DNA of 64,000 nucleotides. Origin: Thermomicrobium sp. (GTDB lineage: Bacteria > Chloroflexota > Chloroflexia > Thermomicrobiales > Thermomicrobiaceae). Numbering within the stretch: the first letter of the stretch is position 1; each line of letters begins with the position of its first letter. Position numbers and translations under genes: made by a program. The stretch spans positions 1 through 64,000 of the forward strand of contig JANZZC010000106.1 of assembly GCA_026419575.1 (NCBI GenBank). Reading direction: 5' to 3'. The notes beneath the pieces are model-generated. The model was not told where the DNA came from. It saw only the letters and a program-made list of their open reading frames with translations, and ran no database searches. Of this stretch, positions 1,944 through 12,623 are shown piece by piece.

Positions 1944-2465
1944 GCGCCGATCCGGCGCCAGGCTGCGTGCGGTGAGCGAGCTCGCGACCCAGGGCCGAGC
2001 TCGCCGTACCGCGACTTCACGGCGTGCCGTCATCCCCGCCCCGGCACCGGAGCGGCTCCCCGCGACGCCCGCTCTCGGGAGGTCGCTCCGGTGACCGAGC
2101 GGGTGCGACCGGGCACCAGCGGTCGAGTCGTCGCTCGCTCGGCCGTTCCGGTACGTCCGCTCCGCGTCACCGCGCCGACCCCGACGCGGCTCCGCCGCGA
2201 TCCATCCACTGCCGTTCCCCGGCGGCCGCTGTCCCGGACCACAGCCTCTCGCCGTCCCCGGCATGCGTGCGCTCGCGCCGCCGGAGCGCCCACGACCGGC
2301 ACCGAGGCGCAGGACAACGCTCGACGGCCGCGGTCGACGATTCAGGCCAGCGTGCGACCGTTCGCCACGGAACGATCGCGGACAGACCGGCCTGCGTTTA
2401 CGCAGCGTTTACTTTCGAGCGCGAGAATCGATGCGCGGAGAGCGACCGTACGGCAGGGGGCGCGC

Positions 2466-3287
2466 ATGAGGGAACCGTCGACGATCCGCGACACGCAGCG
2501 AACCGGCACTCGCTGGCTCGGTCGGTTGAGGTGGTTCGCCGCGGGGATCCTCGCGACCCTCCTCGCCCTCGCTGCTGCGAGTTGGTTGCTGGCGCCCCAG
2601 CTCCTCGCGCACCGGGGCGAGTGGCCGTTCGAGCGGGCGCTCGGCCGCTGGGCGATCGACCGGATCGCCAGCGAGCGCAGCCGGGCGATCGCTACCCCGA
2701 CCGGCCAGAGCCGGCGCGCCATCGAGACCGGCCGCATCGTCTACCTCGGCGCCTGCGCCCAATGTCACGGGGCGGACGCCGACGGGAAAGGATGGCTCGG
2801 CACGTTGAGCTATCCGCCGGCCAGTCCGCTCGACGACGCCGATACTCGAGCGCGGAGCGACGCCGAGCTCTACTGGATCATCGCCAACGGCTTGAGCTTC
2901 GCCGGCATGCCGGGTTTCCGAGACCGTCTGAGCGAGGAGCAGATCTGGTCGGTCGTCGCGTACATCCGCGGTCTGCAGAGCGGCAACGCGGCCCCGCTGT
3001 CGGGTGTGCCCACGCCGTCGACGGAAGGGCTCGGTCGGGCGAACCCGGCGACCACGGGCGCGGCTCGTGGCGCCGCCCTGTACGTCTCGCTGGGCTGCGT
3101 CAACTGCCACGGCGCCGGCGGTAACGCGGCAGGGCGCCTGCAACTGCGGGCGACCGACCAGCGCGCCGTCCGGGCCATCCGCGAGGGCACGGACGAGGGG
3201 ATGCCTGCCTACTCCACCGACATCCTCTCGGAGAGCGACCTCGAGGCGCTCCTCGAGTACATCCGAACGTTCAGCACCGGAAGCTGA
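2466..3287 (+). CDS. Membrane-anchored diheme cytochrome c
   Basis: N-terminal TM segment plus two CxxCH motifs (CAQCH, CVNCH). Confidence 0.85.
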   Translation: MREPSTIRDTQRTGTRWLGRLRWFAAGILATLLALAAASWLLAPQLLAHRGEWPFERALGRWAIDRIASERSRAIATPTGQSRRAIETGRIVYLGACAQCHGADADGKGWLGTLSYPPASPLDDADTRARSDAELYWIIANGLSFAGMPGFRDRLSEEQIWSVVAYIRGLQSGNAAPLSGVPTPSTEGLGRANPATTGAARGAALYVSLGCVNCHGAGGNAAGRLQLRATDQRAVRAIREGTDEGMPAYSTDILSESDLEALLEYIRTFSTGS

Positions 3288-3557
3288 GCTGCGCCGCGCG
3301 ATCGCCGGGGAGCGCTCGCGTCCCGCATCGCCGCCCCTGGCTCCGGCCCGAACGGGATCGCTGCCGGAAACCGTTGCTCGCGCTGTATGCGTCCCGGAGA
3401 CCAGCAACAGCGGAGCCCCAGTTCGTCGCTACCGGTCAGCACCGCAGGGGCTCGAAAGAGCATCGCCCCGAGCCCGCGCCCCGCCGGTACCACGCGCCCG
3501 CCGCAGCGAACGCCGCGGTTCCCGAGACTCGGCCGCTCGGGAAGCGATCGCTCCCTC

Positions 3558-3586
3558 TTGACAACGGGGCACGGTTGTGCTGTACT
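3558..3586 (+). promoter_or_regulatory. Putative sigma70-type promoter TTGACA-17 nt-TGTACT
   Basis: Exact -35 consensus at 3558-3563, 17-nt spacer, TGTACT at 3581-3586, in a noncoding interval. Confidence 0.6.
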
Positions 3587-3589
3587 AGA

Positions 3590-3800
3590 GGTGCGGTTCC
3601 GAGGAGTCGGCAACGACCCGCTCGGAGGCACCCGGCGAAAGCCGGGTGACCGCTCCGGACAACCGGCAGGACGCGCACTGTACATGGCCCTGGAACGTGT
3701 ACAGGAGCGGTCCGAGCCGGAGCCGAGTGGGGAGGTGAATCCTCGTCACGGCTCACGGAGCGAGCGGGAACCGGGCGGCTCGTCGGAACCCTTCTTTTCG
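3590..3800 (+). ncRNA. Candidate structured noncoding RNA, family unresolved; 3' end approximate
   Basis: Nested complementary segments downstream of the promoter: GCGGU/ACCGC enclosing CCGAG..CUCGG and CACCCGGC-GAAA-GCCGGGUG; CUGUACAUG/CGUGUACAG; GCUCCGG/CCGGAGC; alternative GACCGCUCC/GGAGCGGUC. Confidence 0.45.
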
Positions 3801-3838
3801 TCTCGGCTCTCCGCGCAACACGCCGAGACGGCGCGTCG

Positions 3839-4966
3839 TCACGCCTCCTCGAGGAGCTCGCGCGCAGCGGCTGCCGTTTTGAGTCCGCTCCCGGTCAGGA
3901 GCACGACGACCGGCCCGGCCGGTTCCCAGCCTCGCCGACGCGCGAGACGATACGCGGCGGCTCCCAATCCCGCCGTCGGTTCGACGTACAGCCCTTGGCG
4001 CCAGAGCAGGCGAACGGTCTCCCGGAGCACCGGCTCCGGCACCGCCTCCGGCCAGCCGCCGCTGCGGCGCAAGGCCGCGAGCAGGAGCGCTCCGCGCGGC
4101 GGCGCGCCGATGCGGGCACCTTCCGCGAGCGTCTCCCCCGGTGGCAGCGGGTCGACCTCGTCCGATCCCCGCTCCCAAGCCCGCGCGAGCGGCGCGCACG
4201 CCGCCGGTTGCGCCGCCACGAGCAGCGGTCCACCCGCCCGCCCATCGAGCGCGCCGACCGCCAGCTCGGCACCCACCAGGAGACTGCCACCGCCGACAGG
4301 GACGAAGCAGGCTGCCGGCCAGCGGCGGCCGAGCTGCTCCCACACCTCGAGGAGCCACGTCTTCGTCCCTTCGACGAAGATCGGGTGCCAGTTGTGGCTG
4401 GCGTAGACCCTCCCCGGCACCCGCGCTGCGGCCTGCGCCGCGGCCGCGACCGTCTCGCGCGGTCCAGCGACGAGTTCTACCAGCGCACCGTAGGCGCGAG
4501 CCTGGAGCAGCTTCTCGGCGGACGTCCCAGCGGGCGCGAACACGCGCGCCTCCAACCCGTGCAGCGCCGCGTAAGCGGCGAACGCAGCGGCGGCGTTGCC
4601 GGACGAGTCGACCGTGAGGCACCGGACACCGGCCGCCGCCAGGGAAGCCACGAGCACGCTCGCGCCGCGATCCTTGAACGATCCGGTCGGCAGCGAAAAG
4701 TCGAGCTTGAACCAGACCGGCTCGCCGTCGAGTTCCCCAGCGACGAGCGGCGTCATCCCCTCCCCGAGCGTCCGGCGGGGTCGCGCCGCCGGAAGCACCG
4801 CGGCGTAGCGCCAGAGCGTCGGGTCGTCGCTCGCGATGGCAGCCGGATCCAGCCGCAGCGGCGGGTCGATCGCCAGCACTCCACCGCAACGCGGGCAACG
4901 CCACTGCGCGACGTCGCCCGGCGAGAGATGCCCGCAACGGGAACAGCGCAACGACCAGCCCGTCAT
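3839..4966 (-). CDS. thrC: Threonine synthase (PLP-dependent)
   Basis: MTGWSLRCSRCGHLSP..., SLPTGSFKDRGASVLVA PLP-lysine motif, DSSGNAAAAFAAYAA. Confidence 0.85.
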   Translation of the reverse strand: MTGWSLRCSRCGHLSPGDVAQWRCPRCGGVLAIDPPLRLDPAAIASDDPTLWRYAAVLPAARPRRTLGEGMTPLVAGELDGEPVWFKLDFSLPTGSFKDRGASVLVASLAAAGVRCLTVDSSGNAAAAFAAYAALHGLEARVFAPAGTSAEKLLQARAYGALVELVAGPRETVAAAAQAAARVPGRVYASHNWHPIFVEGTKTWLLEVWEQLGRRWPAACFVPVGGGSLLVGAELAVGALDGRAGGPLLVAAQPAACAPLARAWERGSDEVDPLPPGETLAEGARIGAPPRGALLLAALRRSGGWPEAVPEPVLRETVRLLWRQGLYVEPTAGLGAAAYRLARRRGWEPAGPVVVLLTGSGLKTAAAARELLEEA

Positions 4967-5064
4967 GCTCACTGACCTCTCCCGGGGAAGCGCTTCGGCG
5001 TCACTGCGCGGCCGGTCGACCTCCGAGTCGAAGCACCGCCCTCGCTCGCACGCCACCGTTCGCG

Positions 5065-6225
5065 TCAGGCGCCTCGATTCCCCCGCTGCCCGGCAAGACG
5101 GACGAGCTCCCGCACGATGATGTTCCGTTGGATTTCGCTCGTCCCTTCGTAGATCTGCAAGAGCTTGGCGTCGCGGAAGAGCTTTTCCACCGGATAGTCC
5201 GGGCTGTAACCGTTGCCGCCGAACACCTGCACCGCTTCGGTCGCCGCCCACATCGCGGCATCGGCCGAGAACGCCTTGGCCACCGCGGCCGCGAGCGTGT
5301 TGTCTTCGCCGCGATCAGCCAGCCAGGCGGCCAGGTAGGTGAGCTGGCGCGCGGCATCGAGACGGATGCGCATCTCCGCCAGCTTGTGACCAATCGCCTG
5401 ATGCTTGATGATCGGCTGTCCCATCGAGCGGCGCTCTTGGGCATAGGCGAGCGACTCGTCGAGGCAACGCTGGATGATGCCTGCGCCGAAGGCGGCCGCC
5501 ATCGGGCGCGTACGGCGCAGCGTCCGCATCGCGATCGCGAACCCTTCGCCTTCGCGACCGATGCGATTCTCGACCGGCACCGCGACGTCGTGGAACTCGA
5601 TCTCGCCGTTGGAGATCGCCCGTTGCCCGAGCTTGCGGAGCGGCCGCGTGACGATCCCGTCGCGCTCGCGCTCGACGACGAAGACGCTGATGCCGTTGCG
5701 ACCGGCAGCCGGGTCGGTCTTGGCGAAGACGACGAAGAAGCTGGCGATCGGCGCGTTGCCGATCCACCGCTTGTGACCGTTGAGGACGTAGACGTCACCA
5801 CGACGCTCGGCGCGCGTCGTCAGCGCAGCGACGTCCGAACCGGCCTCCGGTTCGGTAAGCGCGAAGCTCGCGTACTCGCCGGCCGTCAGGCGCGGGAGCC
5901 AACGGCGCTTCTGTTCCTCGGTTCCGGCGATCACGATCGGCTCGCCGGCCAGGCAGCTCGAGCAGGCCGCTGCGGTGAAACCGGCGCAGGCCCAGGCGAG
6001 CTGCTCAGCGACCAGCACCAGTTCGAGCACGCCGAGCCCTCGCCCACCGTATTCGGCCGGGATGGTGAGCTCGGTGAGCCCTTCCTCGCGCGCGCGCACG
6101 ATCAACTCGTGCGGATGCCGCTCTTCCCGGTCGTAGACAGCCGCGACCGGCTTGACGACCGTCTCGGCGAACCGGCGAGCACGCGCCTGGAGTTCCTGCT
6201 GCTCCGGCGTCAGACGGAAGTCCAT
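5065..6225 (-). CDS. Acyl-CoA dehydrogenase
   Basis: [29 protein letters not shown]..., [52 protein letters not shown]. Confidence 0.93.
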
Positions 6226-11432: not shown

Positions 11433-12623
11433 ATGCGCCTCACGACCGCGCTCACGGAGAACGCTCGGCTCGCCACCTTCATGCTGGGACACTTCAGCGT
11501 CGACTTCATGAGCGGTCTGCTTCCAGCGCTCTACCCGTTGCTCGTCCTCGAACTCGGCTTCGACTACAACGCGATCGGGAGCCTCGCCTTCGCCTATACC
11601 GCTGCTGTCTCGCTGACGCAGCCGCTCTTCGGCTATCTGGCCGACCGTTGGGGAGTCCAGCGCCTCGCGCCGCTGAGCTTGGTCTGGTCGGGGCTCTTTC
11701 TCGGCCTGTACGGTTTCGTCCGCAATCCGGTTGTCCTCTATCCATTCGCCTTCCTGGCCGGTCTCGGCTCGGGAGCCTACCACCCGATCGGCGCATCGCG
11801 GGCAGCGTTGCTGGCTGCCGAGCGACACCGCAACACCACGATGTCGGTCTACACGGTGAGCGGGACGATCGGGTACGCGCTAGGTCCACTGGCCGGTGTC
11901 GTCCTGTTCCGCACCTTCGGCCTCGCTGGGACCCTGGTGGCCGTCCCCCTGGGCCTGGTCGCGGCGCTCCTCGTCCGCTGGGCACTGCGCCGCTTCCGCG
12001 ATCGCAGCGCGACGGCGCACGCCGCGGCGAGCGGGCTCGAGCGCCAGATCCACTGGCGCGCGCTCGTTCCCGTACTCGCGGTCGTGATGCTGCGGAGCTG
12101 GGCCTTCATGACCGTCGCGACCTTCGCACCGGTCTGGTACCGCGAGCTCGGTTACGAGGTCCTGTACGGTGTGGTCGCGACGGTCATCGTCCTCAGTGGC
12201 GCCGTGGGTACGTTGCTCGGCGGCTACCTGGCGGATCGGATCGGCTCCTGGCGCGTGTTGATCGGCTCGCTCGCGCTCGCTCTACCGGCGCTCCTGCTCT
12301 TCACTGCATTGCCCAACCAGTTCGGTCTCCTCGCTGCCGCGCTGTTCGGGTTGCTGGCCGACGCGTCGATTTCGGTCACGCTCGTGGCCGCCCAGCGGTT
12401 GCTCCCTGGTCGGGCCGGTGTCGCCTCCGGCTTCATCCTGGGGATGGGCTTCGTGACCGGCGGAATCGGCGCGCCGGTGACCGGCTGGATAGCCGACCGG
12501 ATCGGGCTCCAGCTGGCGCTCGGCTCGACCGCACTGGCGCTGCTCGCCGCCCTCGCGCTCTGCTGGGCGATTCCGGTCGGCGTGTTCCGGAGACCGTCAG
12601 TGGCGAGGGCAGCGAGCGCATGA
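11433..12623 (+). CDS. MFS transporter (fosmidomycin-resistance-like)
   Basis: about 12 TM segments, HFSVDFMSGLLPALYPLLV, repeated GYLADR motifs. Confidence 0.8.
   Translation: MRLTTALTENARLATFMLGHFSVDFMSGLLPALYPLLVLELGFDYNAIGSLAFAYTAAVSLTQPLFGYLADRWGVQRLAPLSLVWSGLFLGLYGFVRNPVVLYPFAFLAGLGSGAYHPIGASRAALLAAERHRNTTMSVYTVSGTIGYALGPLAGVVLFRTFGLAGTLVAVPLGLVAALLVRWALRRFRDRSATAHAAASGLERQIHWRALVPVLAVVMLRSWAFMTVATFAPVWYRELGYEVLYGVVATVIVLSGAVGTLLGGYLADRIGSWRVLIGSLALALPALLLFTALPNQFGLLAAALFGLLADASISVTLVAAQRLLPGRAGVASGFILGMGFVTGGIGAPVTGWIADRIGLQLALGSTALALLAALALCWAIPVGVFRRPSVARAASA

Follow-up and report, generated by a model that had tools for sequence, protein, structure and literature searches.

The window analyzed here, a stretch of 64,000 nt of Thermomicrobium DNA, almost certainly holds at positions 3558-3799 of the forward strand a complete stand-alone noncoding RNA gene. 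Its own promoter, a terminator-like U-run, a covarying structure and the lack of a conserved open reading frame are found together, and comparative evidence strongly supports its assignment to a new class of RNA whose general kind is known. On balance we consider it somewhat probable that the whole segment is a gene for a trans-acting structured RNA of ~205 nt that would act as the scaffold of a ribonucleoprotein. A previous sequence-only reading had pointed to an orphan RNA at 3558-3800, structured and with a promoter of its own; homologues of this RNA exist, the compensatory substitutions sought among them are strong, and the proposed extent fits the distance from the -35 box to the U-run almost exactly. 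The main feature that reading overlooked is the stem in which the 5' and 3' ends close upon each other (3593-3608 with 3777-3792), together with the U-run.

Read from 5' to 3' on the forward strand, the segment presents TTGACA, a 17-nt spacer, TGC-TGTACT, ~205 nt and then UCUUUUC. The -35 box (TTGACA, 3558-3563), the spacer and the -10 hexamer (TGTACT, 3581-3586) are all present in the sequence as first proposed, and TGC directly before the hexamer completes an extended -10 element (TGC-TGTACT, 3578-3586), whose hexamer is conserved among homologues at positions 1, 2 and 6. In 36/36 homologues TTGAC precedes the closing-stem motif by 36-39 nt; the two covariance models used for searching (R1 and R2, see below) cover the RNA body only and exclude the promoter. 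In 31 aligned promoters, TTGACA, the 17-nt spacer and a hexamer of the form T-(A/G)-nnn-T (T at position 1, A or G at position 2 and T at position 6, each in 29/31) are accompanied by an unexpected spacer element, GnCA(C). It lies in the window as GnCAC at 3568-3572 (+), 4 nt past the -35 box, and is conserved as G in 28, C in 29 and A in 27 of the 31 promoters. A sigma-70-type promoter with an extended -10 element is a well supported prediction. A promoter scan listed no site at the RNA gene because it demands A at position 2 of the -10 hexamer; the homologues settle the promoter.

The pattern TTGACAnnnnGnCAn9TRnnnT occurs three times in the 2.7-Mb genome from which the window comes, two of the occurrences being its two RNA genes, and the reversed control gave none. 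At the third site (L150 1501-1529; G000:C48:3504-3532) no Rfam RNA or tRNA was found. It was also observed that the spacer of the window promoter contains a palindrome, GCAC-n4-GTGC (3568-3580), of which the element at 3568-3572 is the left half and which recurs in several homologous promoters; it is possibly the site of a regulator.

The RNA is predicted to start at ~3590-3593 and to end in the U-run at ~3796-3799. Model R1 was built from five congeners, and model R2 from 13 copies that belong to the second of the two RNA types and were structured by hand; R2 matches 3590-3799 (+) at 42.7 bits (E 1.1e-12), and the window type is absent from its seed. The terminator-like U-run (UCUUUUC, 3793-3799, +) directly follows the closing stem, and its T-richness is conserved, the first 8 nt past that stem holding 3 to 7 T in 35 members. 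Compared with shuffled sequences, the fold energy reaches z -7.8 for 3590-3799 and -7.0 for 3589-3838, and -3.8 for the antisense strand. As a control, 69 random 210-nt segments of the window have a mean z of -0.38 (sd 1.17, minimum -3.71), and the fold energy is extreme even given the GC-rich genome and beyond chance. The earlier view that no credible reading frame is present here also stands, and a protein is unlikely, since the congeneric copies differ by indels of 1 and 2 nt and most of their frames contain stops.

The predicted architecture is a closed multi-branch RNA (all elements on the forward strand), and not the three-way junction originally suggested. A closing stem of 15 bp (3593-3608 with 3777-3792) consists of P1a, in which GCGGUUCCGA (3593-3602) pairs with 3783-3792 in 10 pairs, and P1a', in which GAGUC (3604-3608) pairs with 3777-3781, the joined 3' strands reading GGCUC-G-UCGGAACCCU (3777-3792). 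P1a has double-sided changes in the full family, and its pairs form in 32-35 of 35 members. Within it, P1b joins CCCGCUC (3617-3623) to GAGCGGG (3762-3768); its pairs are nearly invariant among congeners, and six of seven covary family-wide. P1c joins CUCCG (3653-3657) to CGGAG (3756-3760), covaries in both genus and family, and encloses the remaining hairpins; its first modelled pair is UA in 24, CG in 7 and GC in 1 across the family.

The P2 hairpin, with its GAAA loop (3627-3651), has 5/10 pairs changed on both sides within the genus, and contains the GAAA-capped 8-bp hairpin already recognized in the sequence and supported by the congeners. P1a (10 bp), P1a' (5 bp), P1b, P2 and a short P1c are shared by both RNA types, except that P2 is missing in the first copy of genus g3. 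The types differ inside P1c, where the other type has three hairpins and the window type has one long branched hairpin and a 3' hairpin. The long branched hairpin (3663-3720) shows two-sided changes in 7/16 pairs among the five congeners; inside it lies the 9-bp helix CUGUACAUG/CGUGUACAG (3678-3686 with 3696-3704), correctly proposed beforehand as a hairpin at 3678-3704 and backed by the congeners. The 3' hairpin (3722-3752), which bears a Shine-Dalgarno-like GGGGAGGUGAA, is mostly invariant in congeners. Other pairings offered by the sequence-only reading fared less well. GCGGU/ACCGC with its GCAA hairpin can form in congeners but has no two-sided change and competes with the covarying closing stem, and for the mutually exclusive pairings GACCGCUCC/GGAGCGGUC and GCUCCGG/CCGGAGC the complementarity is present without compensatory support from congeners. 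Sequence conservation peaks in the closing stem (P1 holds 21 of the 36 invariant columns in the alignment of 13 copies), while the hairpins keep their pairing and not their letters.

Covariation offers what we regard as decisive support for this structural model. Three alignments were examined. It should be noted that the pair counts of two of them lean towards structure: one comprises 13 copies of the other type structured by hand, with N padding and with some loop letters omitted for register, because the interior is misaligned when plain MAFFT is applied to the paralogue types together, and one comprises all 36 members fitted to R2. A MAFFT alignment of the five congeners is free of hand-building and model-fitting bias, its RNAalifold structure being derived from that same alignment. 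In the congeners, 14 of 69 pairs have two-sided changes by count, matched in 0/500 shuffles, and sliding the structure along the alignment drops the paired cells from 97% to 39-42%. The 13 hand-structured copies are 95% paired over 43 pairs, 22 of them with two-sided changes. For the 36 members fitted to R2, 93.7% of cells are paired against only 35-46% in slid structures, and two-sided changes occur in 30/43 pairs (0/500 shuffles match) and in 226 cells, compared with 73 in shuffles. When P1a is counted straight from the sequences, most pairs hold in 35/35, and GC and AU replace each other at positions 1, 4 and 6.

The class is represented by 36 homologues in 22 genomes from two families of Thermomicrobiales. 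BLAST recovers copies 80-82% identical in four congeners; in the rest of the family and within the window's own genome it sees mostly the promoter and the 5' stem, so covariance models were needed outside the genus. With R1 alone and strict filters, many paralogues were missed or under-scored. R2 recovers each of the 36 members once in the expected place, and in 189 kb there is no further match at E<1e-5; they reside in 18 home-family genomes and in four from the order's second family, where the length measured by P1 is greater, at 256-279 nt. Among home-family genomes at least 90% complete, the RNA is present in 14/14, usually as two paralogues. Two copies each were found in Thermomicrobium, the Sphaerobacter group, the Thermalbibacter group and genus g4, except for a single copy in genome G004, and one per genome in genus g5. 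A supposed second copy in genome G006 at C2:381995 proved false; the true one is at C1:612001. The RNA was not found in 196 further genomes of the phylum (E<=0.001, strict filters).

When a degenerate pattern describing only the closing stem was run against 84,980 species genomes, 61 sites matched, 11 of them from Thermomicrobium, Sphaerobacter, Thermalbibacter and allied genomes. In precisely these 11, TTGAC precedes CCGA by 41 nt, and 7-8 of 8 outer stem positions pair in them; the promoter accompanies none of the other 50, of which only one reaches 7 pairs.

A separate 88-nt, near-perfect hairpin with a U-tail was noticed in the window's own genome (G000:C115:792-880, -) and at L146 1377-1464 (-). 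It is matched by R2 in six genomes of its own genus (E 2e-7 to 4e-6) and shares the look of the closing stem and not the interior; it has no Rfam match and is not SRP RNA. In genome G005 this element is the only R2 match, and 19 home-family genomes have an R2 match of any kind. A fluoride riboswitch (RF01734, 46.8 bits) lies ~0.4 kb from the element, at L146 877-955 (-).

In the window, the RNA gene follows a c-type cytochrome gene (open frame 2091-3287, +; PF13442 6.7e-27, PF00034 1.2e-19; the true start probably lies inside the frame) and converges on a PALP-fold, threonine-synthase-like enzyme gene (3839-5251, -; PF00291 3.8e-64) that falls below the thrC cut-off (PRK08197, 210.9 bits vs 303). 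Directly downstream of the RNA, at 3800-3829, is a GC-rich inverted repeat (CGTCTCGGC...GCCGAGACG), perhaps the terminator of the converging gene pair. One congener carries a window-type copy in the same cytochrome/thrC interval. In other genera, where neighboring genes were named by reading their translations, copies adjoin rsmI, PDH genes, pyk, glnA, gltB, ABC transporter or MFS genes, on either strand, and no neighbor is constant among the homologues. The Sphaerobacter group has its two paralogues on either side of pyruvate dehydrogenase genes, 6-8 kb from each other, an arrangement that differs in other genera; at L138 the paralogues occupy 3068-3294 and 11464-11693 (-), with pyruvate kinase also there. 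Neighbors differ between genera, and therefore the RNA is best regarded as acting in trans and not as a cis leader, the latter point having already been made by the sequence-only reading; no conserved class of gene lies behind it, in the manner of a riboswitch or leader, and in the window it converges on the thrC-like gene.

This context bears on two further readings. The segment might be a 3' UTR, an attenuator or a bidirectional terminator acting in cis between the cytochrome and thrC-like genes, as its place between converging genes and the repeat at ~3800-3829 would allow, but its own promoter and the unrelated genes flanking its homologues on either strand render this scarcely probable. 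It might instead be a small mobile element whose closing stem represents terminal inverted repeats, given the conserved ends, the variable interior and the two copies in most genomes. The probability of this is close to negligible: the promoter, which lies outside the repeat, is conserved, the interior helices covary, the cytochrome/thrC interval is also where a congener has its copy, and the copy number stays at one or two. Neither reading accounts for the conservation of the promoter or the covariation of the interior.

No catalogued family matches the RNA and its relatives keep its shape while the letters change; it is thus probably a working RNA. We propose that it would accumulate as a discrete transcript and serve as the scaffold of a ribonucleoprotein with a putative protein partner, a mechanism to which we give nearly even chances. 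The near-invariant closing stem could be a common handle for protein binding and for protection and termination of the transcript, although its conservation could also come from termination or RNA stability alone. The hairpins, variable in sequence and conserved in shape, may present the form that the partner recognizes or may specify the role of each paralogue, and the paralogue pair of most genomes would then represent a single machine in two versions that differ in their arms. More tentatively still, and with slightly less than even confidence, we suggest a previously undescribed Thermomicrobiales RNA class with two paralogues in most genomes, a dedicated ribonucleoprotein and a core cellular function, possibly with the 88-nt element as a third relative in Thermomicrobium.

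A regulatory RNA that base-pairs with mRNAs through loop or junction sequences is unlikely: it would agree with the own promoter, the terminator-like end, the intergenic position and the paralogues with different arms, but most nucleotides are paired and the loop and junction sequences are poorly conserved. An Hfq-dependent sRNA in particular is disfavored, since a search of 21 family genomes gave no Hfq above the cut-off, with positive controls. Alternatively, the GGGGAGGUGAA hairpin could mimic a Shine-Dalgarno sequence and titrate 30S subunits. The window copies, and likewise the C89-type copies of g1, g3 and g4, do have a GGAGGUGA-like sequence at a similar place, but it is absent from the Sphaerobacter group (g2), from g5 and from second copies, and it is largely base-paired in the fold. 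As the motif is not kept in every genus, a Shine-Dalgarno function was dropped, and titration of 30S subunits appears very improbable.

RNA genes of ~200 nt that persist across a bacterial family with an elaborate covarying fold often prove to have a central role; of those confined to one lineage, few are understood. With the coordinates, the structural model and the homologue list, the class can be tested directly in cultured thermophiles (e.g., Thermomicrobium, Sphaerobacter), and the pair of paralogues provides an internal comparison of which parts matter.

Comparison with known RNAs agrees with the first impression that the RNA belongs to no known family. None of the 4227 families of Rfam 15 matched anywhere in the window at gathering scores, and at E<=10 the RNA locus gave chance-level matches only. 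The best of these sub-threshold scores came from the GGCGAAAGCC hairpin and was to the Caulobacter sRNA CC3552 (RF01529), a chance match (22.7 bits vs a gathering score of 50, E 0.23). The homologous loci, scanned with Rfam, yielded only a tRNA and the fluoride riboswitch, none at the RNA, and ARAGORN reported there one unrelated tRNA-Arg (L145) and neither a further tRNA nor a tmRNA. SRP RNA (RF00169) was set aside, the genome's own SRP RNA lying elsewhere (G000:C74:4567-4666, 70 bits). Thermomicrobium and Sphaerobacter go unmentioned in three papers on bacterial RNA discovery (PMC11109978, PMC8632094, PMC2864571), where absence is not proof.

A likeness to Y RNA (YrlA) and its protein Ro60 (Rsr) is seen in the conserved closing stem, the variable interior and the presence of paralogues. 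This reading is disfavored because no Ro60 gene was found in the family (TROVE domain, PF05731, in 0/21 genomes, with a positive control genome); neither Rfam nor ARAGORN found a tRNA-like match at the scanned loci.

6S RNA (RF00013) invites a closer comparison, with its length of ~200 nt, a closing stem that pairs the ends, a stand-alone gene and the possibility of two copies. Bacillus subtilis has two 6S RNAs. On this reading the Thermomicrobiales RNA would be a closed, double-stranded, polymerase-binding RNA through which transcription is adjusted to the growth phase; besides its size, long closing stem, own promoter and two paralogues, it could claim that Rfam 6S is not recognized in Thermomicrobium, g3 and g4, so that a replacement is conceivable there. 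6S may be missing from these genomes or too diverged; in g5 it is seen below threshold. However, covariation backs a multi-branch junction in the interior and no single central bubble in a rod, and the window gave no 6S match even at E<=10 (gathering score 46.4 bits). Furthermore, Sphaerobacter-group genomes carry true 6S above the gathering score at other loci (e.g., G007:C1:1341265-1341421) beside both copies of the new RNA. We therefore consider a polymerase-binding role decidedly unlikely. The mycobacterial Ms1 is a polymerase-binding sRNA of 6S-like kind (PMC4191392), which lends that role some support; set beside Ms1 by description only, the new RNA is likewise a lineage-specific structured RNA where 6S is unrecognized. 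Finally, Chloroflexi-1 (RF01698), OLE and GOLLD differ from the new RNA in size and structure, and none is matched to it by Rfam, but they resemble it in kind, as lineage-restricted RNAs with a conserved complex fold whose function was at first unknown.
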